Part shown: piece after piece, positions 2,914-17,655 of the stretch
How the letters are laid out: each line of letters begins with the position of its first letter
Position numbering within the stretch: the stretch's first letter is position 1
From: Lactobacillus sp. CBA3605
Lineage (GTDB): Bacteria; Bacillota; Bacilli; Lactobacillales; Lactobacillaceae
Assembly: GCF_002970915.1 (NCBI RefSeq)
Contig: NZ_CP027190.1
Coordinates: 682,001-746,000 of the forward strand
Length of the DNA: 64,000 nt
Reading direction: 5' to 3'
Position numbers and translations under genes: made by a program
The notes under the pieces: model-generated
What the model was told of the DNA's origin: nothing
Databases searched by the model: none
The model's input: only the letters and a program-made list of their open reading frames with translations

Positions 2914-2969
2914 ACAAAAAAGTTTTCGTCCGTTAATTTCTAAAATAGAAATTAACGGACGAAAACTTT
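2914..2969 (-). terminator. T-box regulated terminator before metA
   Basis: A 22-bp near-perfect stem, AAAGTTTTCGTCCGTTAATT pairing with its complement around a TATTTTA-type loop, is followed by a T run on the minus strand. Its 5' arm follows directly on the T-box core, as expected for the terminator/antiterminator switch. Confidence 0.92.
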
Positions 2970-3206
2970 CGCGTTACCACCGTTATTTATTGGCATTTCA
3001 CAATACCAATCTCGACAAGTGCCCTATTATGCAGGATACTCCGCAAGTTATCGGTTGCGACCGCGTACGTAGCCTTGCGACCCGTACGATGACTCCAAGC
3101 TCATCTTCACCTAATGATTGATTTGCTCCTCACACCACTTCGAAGCTCTCTGAAAAATCATCATTATCGCTACTCTTCTCTTCAACGTCTAATTTGTTCT
3201 TAATTT
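2914..3206 (-). ncRNA. T-box riboswitch, methionine specifier
   Basis: tRNA-sensing leader of the metA operon. Reading the minus strand, an AG-bulge/stem I element (CAGAGAGC) and a distal loop (GTGGTGTGAG) precede the specifier loop GAAG-ATG-AGCTTGGAGT. By alignment to the glyQS pattern this gives codon ATG (3102-3104), i.e. Met. Downstream is the T-box core ACGGTGGTAACGCG (2970-2983), then an intrinsic terminator. Uncharged tRNA-Met should stabilise the antiterminator and switch on metA-metY-hom. The specifier reading was made by eye but is consistent with the genes. Confidence 0.93.
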
Positions 3207-3277: not shown

Positions 3278-3306
3278 TTGACAGTATTTTTAACTGTGGC
3301 TATACT
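3278..3306 (+). promoter_or_regulatory. promoter of the trpX leader transcript
   Basis: TTGACA (3278-3283) and TATACT (3301-3306) with a 17-base spacer, close to consensus. The transcript would begin around 3313, giving a leader of about 390 bases before trpX. Confidence 0.85.
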
Positions 3307-3341
3307 GAGTTCATTCGATAAATGAAAGCGAGGAACTGGAA

Positions 3342-3404
3342 ATGACAAAGTTAGGACAAGTCAACTTGAATCGTTCATGGCAAAGCCGGCAATTCAGATT
3401 GTAA
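3342..3404 (+). CDS. Trp-containing leader peptide, 20 aa (candidate attenuator)
   Basis: A short frame beginning about 30 bases after the predicted transcription start, with a good Shine-Dalgarno (AGGA, 7 bases before ATG). The peptide reads MTKLGQVNLNRSW followed by QSRQFRL; the single Trp codon is at 3378-3380. The stop codon lies inside the first arm of a strong hairpin (3395-3428), so translation of this frame would control RNA folding downstream. It precedes a transporter family predicted to import tryptophan. The frame and ribosome site are directly visible; the regulatory role is inference. It could also be a chance small frame inside a structured RNA. Confidence 0.6.
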   Translation: MTKLGQVNLNRSWQSRQFRL

Positions 3405-3453
3405 TTCCGTCAACACGGATACAATCTGGCAAACAGTTTGTATCTGTGCCGAC
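3395..3453 (+). promoter_or_regulatory. mutually exclusive leader hairpins
   Basis: Arm 2 (ACGGATACAATCTG, 3415-3428) can pair backwards with arm 1 (CAGATTGTAATTCCGT, 3395-3410) as 14 pairs with a 2-base bulge. It can instead pair forwards with arm 3 (CAGTTTGTATCTGTG, from 3434) as about 14 pairs including the CACGG/TGTG extension. Only one fold can exist at a time. Arm 1 contains the leader-peptide stop codon, the classic layout of translation-coupled attenuation. Confidence 0.7.
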
Positions 3454-3514
3454 TCACTTTGTTATCCAAAGAAGTCTGCATGGGTTTTAACACAGCAGGC
3501 TTCGGTTCCGTAAA

Positions 3515-3549
3515 GGGCAAACCAGAGCTTACTGGTTTGCCCTTTTTTT
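3515..3549 (+). terminator. leader terminator upstream of trpX
   Basis: Perfect 11-bp stem GGGCAAACCAG / CTGGTTTGCCC with loop AGCTTA followed by seven T. It lies 155 bases before trpX, so it must be read through or regulated for the transporter to be expressed from the upstream promoter. Confidence 0.93.
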
Positions 3550-3583
3550 ATTGGTCCAATTTAGTCACGCTGACATGCAGTTA

Positions 3584-3616
3584 CAGTCATGGTGATGAGG
3601 ATGACCATCATGACTG
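3584..3616 (+). repeat. inverted repeat in the trpX 5' region
   Basis: CAGTCATG and CATGACTG (8 bp, perfect) flank a 17-base loop between the leader terminator and trpX. There is no T run, so it is not a terminator. It could be an RNA stem or an operator; nothing else is recognisable between 3550 and 3690. Confidence 0.45.
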
Positions 3617-3704
3617 ACATCATCCCCGCACCAAGCAAGCTAAGTTAGCCTAACTAGCTGCCCGAAAAAAAGAGTTTGAAATAATTAAGTTGAGGTGAAC
3701 CACA

Positions 3705-4709
3705 TTGAAACGTATGCTTGCATTTATTAGCGCTTTGGTCGTCTTCTTAGGTGTCGCTTTTGTCCTGACGAACCAAACAGCCAAAAAAACTACTAGTTCA
3801 AAGAAAGTCCCTACAGTCGGGATTTTACAATTGGAAACCCACCCTGCCTTAGACGCCATTCATCGCGGGATTCTAGCTGGATTAAAAGAATACGGTTATG
3901 TGCCCGGTAAAACCGTTAAGATTGATTATCAAAATGCACAAGGTGATCAGAGTAATCTGAAAACAATGAGCCAAAAATTCATCAATGAAAATGCGGATGA
4001 AACCATCGCTATTGCGACTCCCGCTGCCCAAGCTTTAGCCAATGCGGCTGGAAAACAAACGCCGGTAATTCTCGCAGGGATTACTGATCCAGTTGGCGGC
4101 GGTCTGATTAAAAGTAATACTAAACCCGGCGCTAACATCACGGGGACTTCCGGTGAATCACCATTAAAGTCCCATTTAGCTTTATTACGAAAACTCGTCC
4201 CTAAAGCTAAAAAGATTGGCATTATCTATACGACTTCTGATCATGGTGGCGAATATAACGCTAAGAAATTCGCCAAAATTTGTCACCAAGCTGGGATTGC
4301 ATACAAGTTATATACCATCTCTAGCACTAACGATATGCAACAAGTTGCTGAAACGATGGCGTCACAAGTTGACGCCGTCTATGCCCCTCAAGATAACGGA
4401 GTTGCCAGCGCAATGAAGACCTTGGTTTCAGTCACTAACAAGGCTAACATCCCCGTTATTCCTGCCGTTGATACCATGGTTCAAGATGGCGGGCTCGCCA
4501 CGCTCTCCGTTGATCAATATCAATTAGGGAAATTATCTGGTGAAATGGCAGCCCGGGTCTTGAAAGGAAAAGCTACAGCGACCTATCCAGTTGAACTCAT
4601 TACTAAAGGGAAAATGACACTTAACTTGAGTGAAGCCAAACTATTAGGACTTAAATTCCCAGCTAGCGTCTTGAAAGAAGCCAAACAGAAAGGGGTCATT
4701 TACAAATGA
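3705..4709 (+). CDS. trpX: ABC transporter substrate-binding protein, TrpX family
   Basis: Extracellular substrate-binding component of a COG2984-type ABC importer. Family members are predicted to carry tryptophan or tyrosine; here the substrate is inferred. Residues 4-24 form one hydrophobic N-terminal segment acting as signal or anchor, with no lipobox Cys. The rest is the two-lobe periplasmic-binding fold (VPTVGILQLETHPALD, TPVILAGITDPV, KKIGIIYTTSD). TTG is taken as start because GAGGTG lies 7 bases before it, whereas the in-frame ATG three codons later is 16 bases away. The stop overlaps the permease start by ATGA. Confidence 0.87.
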   Translation: MKRMLAFISALVVFLGVAFVLTNQTAKKTTSSKKVPTVGILQLETHPALDAIHRGILAGLKEYGYVPGKTVKIDYQNAQGDQSNLKTMSQKFINENADETIAIATPAAQALANAAGKQTPVILAGITDPVGGGLIKSNTKPGANITGTSGESPLKSHLALLRKLVPKAKKIGIIYTTSDHGGEYNAKKFAKICHQAGIAYKLYTISSTNDMQQVAETMASQVDAVYAPQDNGVASAMKTLVSVTNKANIPVIPAVDTMVQDGGLATLSVDQYQLGKLSGEMAARVLKGKATATYPVELITKGKMTLNLSEAKLLGLKFPASVLKEAKQKGVIYK

Positions 4710-5611
4710 GTATGATTGTATCAAGTATTGGGCAGGGCCTCTTATGGGCCATCTTAGGCATTGCACTCTTTTTAACTTTCCGAATTTTAGATTTCCCAGA
4801 TATGACCGTTGAAGGCACTTTTCCATTAGGCGCAGCGACCGCCGTAACCGCAATTGCCCATGGCATGGACCCATATACCGCCACACTCTTAGCTTTTGTC
4901 ACGGGTGCCGCCGCCGGTTTAATCACTGGACTCTTATACACTAAAGGGAAGATTCCGATTTTATTAGCCGGGATTTTGGTGATGACCGCATGCTTATCCG
5001 TCAATCTCCGGATTATGGGTAGCGCCAACGTCTCGCTATTAGGCAAACAGACCATCTTTGCCAACCACTTTTTAGCCAGCTTACCAAAATACTTTGACAG
5101 CGTCTTCGTCGGGTTGGTCGTCATTGCAGTGGTCACTGTATTACTCATCCTGTTCTTACAAACTAATCTCGGTCAGGCCTTCATCGTCACCGGTGATAAC
5201 CGGATGATGGCGCGTTCAATTGGCATTAATACCGACAACATGACGATAATGGGACTAATGGTCTCTAACGGCATGATTGGGATGGGCGGTGCTTTAATCG
5301 CACAAAACAATGGCTATGCTGACGTCAACATGGGGATTGGGATTATCGTGATTGCTCTAGCCTCCATCATTATTGGGGAAGTTGTCTTCGGTGACTTAAC
5401 CTTAAATCAACGTTTAATTGCCGTCACACTTGGCAGTATCTTATATCGGTTCGTCTTATTAATCGTGTTACAACTCGGTTTCAGTACCAACGATTTGAAC
5501 TTGCTATCCGCCATCATCTTGGCCGTTTGCCTGATGTTGCCACAGGCTAGCAAAAAGCTCCATCTCAATCATTTATTAAAGAAAGGGGTCGCTAAATATG
5601 ACGAAAACTAA
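4706..5611 (+). CDS. trpY: ABC transporter permease, TrpY family
   Basis: Multi-pass permease (COG4120) of the same importer, with about eight hydrophobic segments. The N-terminal family signature RILDFPDMTVEGTFPLGAA is clear. It overlaps trpX by 4 bases and trpZ by 14, so the three genes form one translationally coupled unit. Substrate assignment rests on the family and on the Trp-containing leader and is not proven. Confidence 0.87.
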   Translation: MSMIVSSIGQGLLWAILGIALFLTFRILDFPDMTVEGTFPLGAATAVTAIAHGMDPYTATLLAFVTGAAAGLITGLLYTKGKIPILLAGILVMTACLSVNLRIMGSANVSLLGKQTIFANHFLASLPKYFDSVFVGLVVIAVVTVLLILFLQTNLGQAFIVTGDNRMMARSIGINTDNMTIMGLMVSNGMIGMGGALIAQNNGYADVNMGIGIIVIALASIIIGEVVFGDLTLNQRLIAVTLGSILYRFVLLIVLQLGFSTNDLNLLSAIILAVCLMLPQASKKLHLNHLLKKGVAKYDEN

Positions 5612-6377
5612 GACACCATTGCTGGCATTAAAAGATATCGTGACTAGGGTGAACGTGGGCACTCCCAATGAAGTGATGATTCTCCGGCATTTAAACTTAG
5701 ACATTTATAATGGCGACTTCGTAACCGTCCTCGGGTCCAATGGGGCCGGCAAATCCACCCTTTTCAATACGATTAGTGGTGAATTACCAGTTAACAGTGG
5801 GTCAATCTATTTAAATGAACACGATATTACGTCCCTCTCCGTTGAAAAACGAACCGCCTTTTTAGCGCGTGTCTTCCAAGATCCTAAAATGGGCACGGCC
5901 CCGCGGATGACGGTGGCTGAAAACTTGCTGTTGGCGAGTCAACGTGGGCAACATCGGACGTTGCGCTTAAGACGCTTAAAGCAACAACTCCCGCATTTCA
6001 AGGACTTAACGGCGACCATGAATAATGGCTTATCGGATCGCTTGAATACGGCGACCGAAAATTTATCCGGTGGACAACGGCAAGCGTTAAGCTTCTTAAT
6101 GGCAACTGCCCAACGCCCCGACTTACTCTTATTAGATGAACATACCGCCGCCTTAGACCCTAAAACGAGTGCCGAATTGATGCGGCAAACCAATGAACGG
6201 GTCACGCAAGAAAAGCTGACTTGTTTAATGATTACCCATCATTTAGATGACGCCCTCAAATATGGAAATCGCTTAATTGTCCTTGACCAAGGAAAAATCA
6301 AATTTGATGTCCAGGGCGCCGAAAAAGCCCAGCTCACCAAAGAAAAACTGTTAACCTTCTTTGACACCATCGACTAA
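5598..6377 (+). CDS. trpZ: ABC transporter ATP-binding protein, TrpZ family
   Basis: Cytoplasmic ATPase (COG1101) energising the TrpXY importer. Walker A GSNGAGKST, Q-loop VFQDPK, signature ENLSGGQRQ and Walker B LLLLDEHTAALD with the switch His (MITHHLDDAL) are all intact, and the 259-residue length is normal. It is the last gene of the unit and is followed by a strong terminator. Confidence 0.9.
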   Translation: MTKTKTPLLALKDIVTRVNVGTPNEVMILRHLNLDIYNGDFVTVLGSNGAGKSTLFNTISGELPVNSGSIYLNEHDITSLSVEKRTAFLARVFQDPKMGTAPRMTVAENLLLASQRGQHRTLRLRRLKQQLPHFKDLTATMNNGLSDRLNTATENLSGGQRQALSFLMATAQRPDLLLLDEHTAALDPKTSAELMRQTNERVTQEKLTCLMITHHLDDALKYGNRLIVLDQGKIKFDVQGAEKAQLTKEKLLTFFDTID

Positions 6378-17364: not shown

Positions 17365-17655
17365 ATAAAAAAACGTCCCATTAGCAAAATTGCTAAAAGG
17401 ACGTTTAACCGTGGTTCCACCTTAATTCGTTACCAGCTCACACTGGTAGCCTCACGTTGACTGACTGTCAACTTGGCTAACGAGACCATTCGGCTAAGGC
17501 TAATGACGCAGGTTCACCTTAGCAGTTCATAGATGTGGGTTCGCCGATAATATCTGCCCGGTTCTCAGCTACCCGGACTCTCTGGATGATAAATTTATCA
17601 GTTACTTTTTCTAATCAGAACTTTTATTAAAATTTAATTAGTCGTTTAATTTAAA
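17365..17655 (-). ncRNA. T-box riboswitch, histidine specifier
   Basis: Leader of the his operon. The minus strand shows the AG bulge (CAGAGAGTC), distal loop GGTAGCTGAGAA, and the specifier region GAACC-CAC-ATCT-ATGAACTG. Aligned to the glyQS leader this gives codon CAC (17535-17537), i.e. His. The T-box core AAGGTGGAACCACG (17410-17423) precedes a terminator. Uncharged tRNA-His should turn on hisZ to hisC. Confidence 0.93.
17366..17406 (-). terminator. T-box regulated terminator before hisZ
   Basis: AAACGTCC pairs with GGACGTTT with an inner AGCAA/TTGCT stem, followed by a T run on the minus strand directly after the T-box core. Confidence 0.92.

Follow-up and report, generated by a model that had tools for sequence, protein, structure and literature searches.

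A probable Trp-codon attenuator upstream of trpXYZ in Lactobacillaceae coincides with the trpB motif, a published riboswitch candidate

In the trp operon attenuator of Escherichia coli, a leader peptide with two adjacent Trp codons accompanies four RNA arms that form alternative hairpins, and the position of the ribosome picks the terminator. A different device is described for tryptophan uptake in streptococci, where trpXYZ is preceded by a Trp T-box; in the available part of the source, Trp-tRNA charging is the proposed signal and the tRNA binds the RNA directly (PMC9382623). The available part of another report has an entry, in its Table 1, for an ABC transporter with a Trp T-box in L. plantarum WCFS1 (PMC2494555). 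The histidine attenuators of Firmicutes use leader peptides in place of T-boxes, with runs of His codons, other genes and other taxa than those treated here, as far as the available parts of the two reports go (PMC9413887, PMC2965389). The closest described RNA is the trpB motif (RF04312, also SRC-39-1), presented as a strong riboswitch candidate with an unknown ligand and reported from Firmicutes and Fusobacteria with over 900 members (Narunsky et al. 2024, PMC11109978). The available part of that report assigns an antiterminator to the hairpin's right shoulder, gives an ABC transporter as the commonest gene, leaves a classic attenuator or a protein open as alternatives and makes no mention of a leader ORF (PMC11109978).

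We analysed a stretch of 64,000 nucleotides from Lactobacillus sp. CBA3605 (NZ_CP027190.1, positions 682,001 to 746,000), here called the window, whose first letter is position 1. The element lies upstream of three plus-strand genes: trpX, encoding a tryptophan ABC transporter substrate-binding protein (3705..4709; NF041285 score 442.8 bits, cut-off 390, and PF04392), a trpY-like permease gene (4706..5611; PF02653) and a trpZ-like ATPase gene (5598..6377; PF00005). This genome holds only one PF04392 gene. On the same strand, a sigma-70 type promoter, TTGACA-17-TATACT, was assigned by consensus at 3278..3306 with 11 of 12 matches. It is followed by the Shine-Dalgarno sequence GAGGAA (3330..3335, read from the sequence) and by a leader ORF of 20 codons, MTKLGQVNLNRSWQSRQFRL and a stop (3342..3404), in which the single Trp codon, the putative sensor UGG, occupies 3378..3380. 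The leader pattern has a single match in the window, against none in 100 shuffles. The original prediction had described this promoter, a 20-residue frame containing one Trp codon behind a good ribosome site, a stop codon inside the first of three arms, and a perfect terminator about 155 bases before trpX. All four descriptions agree with the coordinates: the stop codon lies within arm 1 (CAGATTGTA, 3395..3403), and the intrinsic terminator at 3512..3545 has 14 pairs and a T run to 3552. Between this terminator and trpX, the window also contains a palindromic stretch, CAGTCATGGTGAT...ATCATGACTG (3585-3635), which is partly visible in one relative (L002) and was not seen by eye in the other relatives' stretches listed.

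The prediction had further taken TrpXYZ to be usually under T-box control in Firmicutes, while seeing no T-box core here. The second statement was borne out by the plus strand of the window leader, which gave no match to RF00230. For Lactobacillaceae the first was not, since none of 40 regions upstream of trpX contained a T-box at E 0.001; T-box control thus seems not to be the norm for trpXYZ in the family, and on these two results we rejected a T-box as the window's switch. T-boxes do occur elsewhere in the window. One match on the minus strand at 2952-3194 (80.4 bits, below the gathering score of 93) is divergent from the trpX leader and faces genes for a MetA-type acyltransferase (metA) and an O-acetylhomoserine sulfhydrylase, and a T-box leader at 17394-17627, also on the minus strand, scored 115 bits.

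In a BLASTN search within Lactobacillaceae, the leader DNA had matches in 68 of 301 genomes, spread over 14 of 40 genera, the window's own genome included. The exact core was present in 66 of the 68 loci, with an in-phase ATG in 66 of 66; L038 has a variant core with the leader present, and at the L066 locus the leader was identified by way of L219. Scanning named genomes with a pattern yielded at least 118 stretches, at least 17 of them outside Lactobacillaceae and at least 101 within the family, where Lactiplantibacillus, Limosilactobacillus, Ligilactobacillus, Liquorilactobacillus, Companilactobacillus, Lapidilactobacillus, Paucilactobacillus, Furfurilactobacillus, Loigolactobacillus, Pediococcus and Weissella were represented. 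Downstream of 113 of 115 unique Lactobacillaceae copies we found trpX, and the sequence of the two copies without trpX in view (L059 and L156) ends 133 and 99 bases past the core; among the pattern matches listed, trpX was absent behind 17 of 17 stretches from outside the family. A covariance model of the leader, R1, built from TGG-bearing copies, had matches in 186 of 395 Lactobacillales genomes, covering 54 of 80 genera. In 40 fetched R1 matches from outside Lactobacillaceae or from second copies, the next gene was trpX in 33 and a leader frame was present in all 40, with Trp codons in 37, Tyr/Phe codons in two and neither in one (L249). The 40-locus sets used in this study were hand-picked among the matches listed and are not random samples, being aimed at genera without a BLASTN match or at non-Lactobacillaceae families and second copies, and locus counts are not counts of independent events because many copies are related.

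Some copies depart from the common arrangement. Companilactobacillus kimchiensis and C. mindensis carry two copies each of leader plus trpX (L086/L137 and L177/L186, some cut at the locus end). Two leader copies without trpX are followed by a group II intron reverse transcriptase-like gene (L248) and by no recognised gene (L258). At L252, L254, L262 and L275, another very short frame containing a Trp codon, for example MRQWTSQRWQSK or MKRRWHSTHTEN, each with its stop, was seen by eye between the terminator and trpX.

Conservation of the leader frame and its Trp codon had been named as a check on the prediction, and both proved to be kept. A Shine-Dalgarno sequence and ATG frame in phase with the Trp codon was present in 114 of 115 unique Lactobacillaceae copies, against 0 of 115 for the other two phases; the TGG codon was part of the search pattern behind this set, and the fixed letters around TGG stem partly from the searches. 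When upstream regions were chosen through the TrpX protein, 36 of 40 had a Trp leader. R1 matched 35 of these regions, all 35 with a Trp leader; the 36th, L205, was read by eye as MSNDRSFSQINLWWRG and a stop, and no leader was found in the other four (L195, L210, L211 and L214). Among the unique Lactobacillaceae copies, the distance from ATG to the Trp codon ranged from 9 to 14 codons. Only one Trp codon was present in 109 of 115 Lactobacillaceae leaders, and Leu-Asn at about codons -4 and -3 before the sensor, also seen in many Tyr/Phe leaders, was often kept at the amino acid level through several codons. A pure codon model does not account for a single Trp codon and conserved Leu-Asn.

Downstream of the sensor codon the RNA offers a series of mutually exclusive pairings. 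Arm 2 (CACGGATACAATCTG, 3414..3428) can pair with arm 1 or with arm 3 (3434..3454), and the 3' part of arm 3 (3442-3454) can pair in part with arm 2, with the 5' strand of helix P1 or with arm 4 (AGTCTGCATGGGT, 3473..3485). The P1 5' strand, AGCCGG at 3384..3389, has its partner at 3449-3454, with one mismatch in the window. A further helix, P0, has its 3' strand at 3453..3465, complementary to the leader start (in the window, 3456-3465 with 3342-3351). Arm 5 (GCTTCGGTT, 3499..3507) can either close hairpin 4:5 (3471..3503) or pair, at 8 of 9 positions, with 3520-3528 in arm 6, the loop-side half of the terminator formed by arms 6 and 7.

Arm 3 is a strand for which three helices, 2:3, 3:4 and P1, compete, and each of them covaries. 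In 2:3, 96.9% of cells were paired and 37 were double-changed, where shuffles averaged 12.2; 3:4, which has 12 of 13 pairs in the window, gave 93.4%, with 31 against 7.4; and P1 gave 93.4%, with 26 against 5.7. None of 500 shuffles reached these counts of double-changed cells. Counted by pairs instead, double changes (three pairs in each helix) do not clearly exceed shuffles, since values as high occurred in 377, 46 and 232 of 500 for 2:3, 3:4 and P1. When partners were slid, pairing fell to 0-47%; 3:4 slid by +2 still had 23 double-changed cells, at 39.5% pairing. Two P1 positions showed GC 52/AU 16 and GC 58/AU 8/GU 2. Alignment column 103 takes part in two covarying pairs, 15:103 in P1 and 103:151 in 3:4, and the pair 106:148 covaries in 3:4.

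As an alignment-free measure, we compared the pairing energy of each arm with its own partner and with partners from foreign genera at 82 unique loci of 11 genera. For 1:2, these energies are the only test applied because MAFFT aligns arm 1 badly; own partners gave -15.0 against -11.3 kcal/mol and were better in 11 of 11 genera. The same held in all 11 genera for 5:6 (-12.0 against -8.2 kcal/mol; advantage in Lactiplantibacillus -3.4 kcal/mol) and 6:7 (-21.2 against -10.9 kcal/mol, with an advantage in 82 of 82 loci). Own partners were better in 10 of 11 genera for 2:3 (-13.2 against -10.7 kcal/mol), nine for 3:4 (-14.1 against -12.8 kcal/mol), nine for P0 (-9.6 against -5.6 kcal/mol, not in Companilactobacillus and Paucilactobacillus), seven for 4:5 (-16.2 against -12.1 kcal/mol) and six for P1 (-7.7 against -6.7 kcal/mol). 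For six control pairings, the difference stayed below 1 kcal/mol. Counting permutations is too liberal a test when used alone, since 0 of 1000 permutations were as low for control 1:3 (effect 0.9 kcal/mol, 5 of 11 genera) and 5 of 1000 for control 2:6. Of 90 genus-labelled loci 82 were used, duplicates and loci without both hairpins being dropped; 11 of 101 loci of the named scan, labelled only Lactobacillus sp. or similar, were left out, and L083 was assigned to Liquorilactobacillus by judgement.

Taken with the covariation of 2:3, 3:4 and P1, these energies uphold the mutually exclusive hairpins formed by arms 1, 2 and 3 near the sensor codon, and the covariation that the original prediction had asked for was found. 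Its tentative antiterminator, GGTTT near 3484 with AAACC at 3519-3523, is replaced by a better candidate, arm 3 with arm 4 (3442-3454 with 3473-3485) and then arm 5 with 3520-3528. A T-rich tail follows hairpin 4:5 in 16 of 18 Limosilactobacillus, 16 of 17 Companilactobacillus, 5 of 7 Pediococcus, 5 of 5 Furfurilactobacillus and 4 of 4 Paucilactobacillus copies and is rare in Lactiplantibacillus (0 of 13), Liquorilactobacillus (1 of 11) and Ligilactobacillus (2 of 7). In Lactiplantibacillus, 12 of 13 copies were seen to have the second terminator. The order 1:2, 3:4, 5:6 versus 2:3, 4:5, 6:7 fits the right sense in both terminator layouts.

We consider it very likely that the element is a ribosome-mediated transcription attenuator that reads charged tRNA-Trp. 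With ample charged tRNA-Trp, the ribosome would reach the stop codon and mask arm 1; arms 2 and 3 would then pair, as would 4 and 5, leaving terminator 6:7 to form and trpXYZ off. With scarce charged tRNA-Trp, it would halt with UGG in the A site. Beyond the codon in the A site, a ribosome shields about 12 further bases, and for this reason one stalled at UGG would mask the P1 strand AGCCGG and leave arm 1 free. Helix 1:2 could then form, releasing arm 3 for arm 4, and in the last step arm 5 would be freed to pair with arm 6 and RNA polymerase would read through. In RNA that carries no ribosome, P0 and P1 would sequester arm 3 as well as the leader start. As in the E. coli trp attenuator, the proposed device combines a Trp-codon leader peptide with alternative hairpins and a terminator chosen by ribosome position, but it has one Trp codon, up to seven arms and tandem hairpins, and the likeness would be one of function.

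The effect of ribosome position was modelled by greedy co-transcriptional folding of the 82 loci, using a locking rule of our own, with the ribosome at the Trp codon or at the stop. Helix 1:2 formed in 73 of 82 loci at Trp versus 4 at stop (second setting, 69 versus 4) and 2:3 in 8 versus 65 (5 versus 48), whereas smaller shifts were obtained for 3:4 (51 versus 31; second setting, 48 versus 35), hairpin 4:5 (42 versus 52; 41 versus 49) and 5:6 (25 versus 22; 34 versus 29). In Pediococcus, Furfurilactobacillus and Ligilactobacillus, 4:5 shifted in the wrong direction. The last terminator was not switched, forming in 50 of 82 loci at Trp and 49 at stop (second setting, 42 versus 38), and in Lactiplantibacillus in 10 of 10 versus 9 of 10. 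The simulation therefore supports the first half of the relay, 1:2 versus 2:3, and 3:4 in part; since it leaves the last terminator unswitched, the step from 6:7 to 5:6 is suggested by complementarity. Equilibrium folding showed no switch, favouring 2:3 and 4:5 at either ribosome position, and was dropped as a switch test. The original reasoning, that a ribosome finishing the peptide would favour 2:3 and one stalled at the Trp codon 1:2, thus agrees with the co-transcriptional simulation and not with equilibrium folding.

By position, arms and downstream gene, we identify the window element with RF04312, although by score it is not a member: it reaches 31 bits, below the gathering score of 59, and is missed by Rfam. 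In the alignment of L219, the two have in common the hairpin formed by arms 2 and 3, a GGCU shoulder and the terminator behind, whereas the leader ORF, arm 1, P1 and P0 of the window element are all absent from the RF04312 model. Sub-threshold RF04312 matches lay at the leader in 6 of 40 Lactobacillaceae loci, and matches above the cut-off were found in 52 of 295 Lactobacillales genomes. R1 and RF04312 matches coincide in G308, G389, G412, G418 and G542, as judged by eye from coordinates. A scan of the phylum with RF04312 matched 4 of 398 genomes, with leaders at G308 (L288) and G979 (L289); the matches L290 and L291 were set aside as chance-like by eye.

The RF04312 match begins past the leader, so the model itself is blind to the ORF, and yet a leader frame was present at 38 of 40 RF04312 loci, with Trp codons in 35 and Tyr/Phe codons in three. 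The two loci with none, L318 and L331, were rejected as false matches, having no such leader and unrelated genes. At L306 and L317, an ATG frame with Trp was taken over the best-scored non-ATG start, and a recount restricted to ATG starts again gave 35 Trp and three Tyr/Phe leaders of 40. When the same upstream DNA was dinucleotide-shuffled, 3.05% of 8000 sequences passed the Trp-leader criterion.

The sensor codons follow the pathway of the downstream genes. At the R1 loci L267 and L283 and the RF04312 locus L311, Tyr/Phe leaders of the type LNNYYFSYFR, with these codons in the place of the Trp codon, precede a shikimate dehydrogenase-like gene; aroE follows Tyr/Phe leaders at these three loci and at L341 and L342, and a Tyr/Phe leader that also has a Trp lies before an aminotransferase gene at L343. 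Three leaders with two Trp codons each (L287, L297 and L314) precede trpB, with TrpB identity confirmed for L297 and assigned by likeness for L287 and L314. In another family of the phylum, a Phe-rich leader lies before a transporter that, judged by eye, resembles the sodium symporter type (L289). A pattern for Tyr/Phe leaders had matches in 96 of 350 genomes, drawn from 33 of 79 genera, with none for the reversed control among the matches listed. All 30 fetched loci of this pattern, which itself selects the codons, had an in-phase leader. Downstream lay 24 PF04392-like genes, two aroE, one aminotransferase gene and three genes for family 3 solute-binding proteins, assigned by Pfam on four representatives and for the others by likeness and tree.

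A tree of 83 length- and motif-filtered PF04392 proteins, in which Lactobacillaceae are represented by the window and L250 only, on long branches, gathered the Tyr/Phe-leader proteins (26 rows for 24 loci, two having been fetched twice) in one clade with 100/100 support and put the 57 Trp-leader rows, L317 counted among them, on the other side, also with 100/100. All five tested proteins of the Tyr/Phe clade fell below the TrpX cut-off, and four of five Trp-leader proteins lay above it; the NCBIfam cut-off was rejected as a clean divider, as the Trp-leader protein L281 scores 335. From the leader codons, the clade behind Tyr/Phe leaders (L332-L360) is predicted to be a Tyr/Phe importer. One locus departs from both codon types. 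At L249 (G008 C1:1145579-1145722, minus strand), the leader reads MINSYLSQLNIRLRSR and a stop, ending in LNIRLRSR with Trp-Gln replaced by Leu-Arg, and the next gene resembles, by eye, a polar amino acid binding protein fused to a permease. Some 4.5 kb away, this genome carries a further R1 match. L249 is possibly an arginine-type sensor. On the whole, we lean slightly towards an ancestral Lactobacillales cassette that was re-aimed by codon swaps: with Trp codons to trpXYZ and trpB, with Tyr/Phe codons to aroE-aroF, the aminotransferase and the would-be importer clade, and once, at L249, with Arg-rich codons, one stalled ribosome driving a domino of up to seven arms that relieves two terminators in series.

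A metabolite-binding riboswitch, in which the hairpin binds an amino-acid-related ligand and the ORF is incidental, is the reading that the available part of PMC11109978 gives the same RNA, and the letters of arms 2 and 3 are indeed highly conserved. That conservation is equally explicable by three pairings sharing one strand, and an incidental ORF would hardly be in phase in 114 of 115 copies or recur at RF04312 loci picked by a model that lacks it. Because these loci carry Trp or Tyr/Phe leaders matched to pathway genes, we favour attenuation and regard a metabolite riboswitch as highly improbable. Binding of the leader by a TRAP-like or other protein, which the available part of the same report could not exclude (PMC11109978), seems least probable of all: no repeated trinucleotide array was visible by eye in the leader, and neither a codon swap nor coding constraint would be expected of it. 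The peptide itself could also be the sensor, nascent LN..WQSR and free tryptophan stalling the ribosome with RNA folding to follow. The conserved Leu-Asn and a WQS(R/Q) end nearly fixed in Lactobacillaceae (where TGGCAAAG was part of the search pattern) speak for such an arrest peptide, but the same kind of RNA carries ends such as YYFSYFR or FYFSYFR in paralogs and WQNWRR, WRNWRR or WQSH outside Lactobacillaceae, and the final Arg/Gln tracks the P1 partner base (CGG, CAG, CGA). In TnaC, arrest is caused by free Trp and induces at high Trp. An uptake operon induced at high Trp would be controlled in the wrong sense, and we judge a TnaC-like arrest unlikely, marginally less so than the riboswitch.

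The final step of attenuation is where a departure from our model has a better claim. Attenuation could proceed through arms 1 to 4 alone, the Lactiplantibacillus terminator at 3512-3545 being relieved otherwise or partly constitutive and the 5:6 relay unused; this alternative is compatible with ribosome-mediated attenuation in everything but the last step. It would account for a simulation that does not switch this terminator and for the 13 of 13 Lactiplantibacillus copies in which 4:5 is without a T-rich tail. It fits poorly with the better own fit of arms 5 and 6 in every genus, Lactiplantibacillus included, and with the place of arm 6 in the loop-side half of the terminator, where nucleation would probably occur. 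We therefore hold an unused relay to be a serious but doubtful alternative.

The RNA part of this element has already been published as the orphan trpB motif; we found no publication on the leader in the open literature, subscription papers and preprints being outside the scope of the search. If it holds when tested, the leader ORF reading would explain the orphan class, and the 900 or more members reported for this published riboswitch candidate would gain a function. The search for a ligand of the trpB motif could then be spared, as the ligand may not exist. Leader-peptide attenuation would possibly be common for aromatic amino acid sensing in Lactobacillales, where T-boxes are expected; leader codons would predict the substrates of transporters, and the codon swaps would make the re-aiming of one attenuator directly testable.
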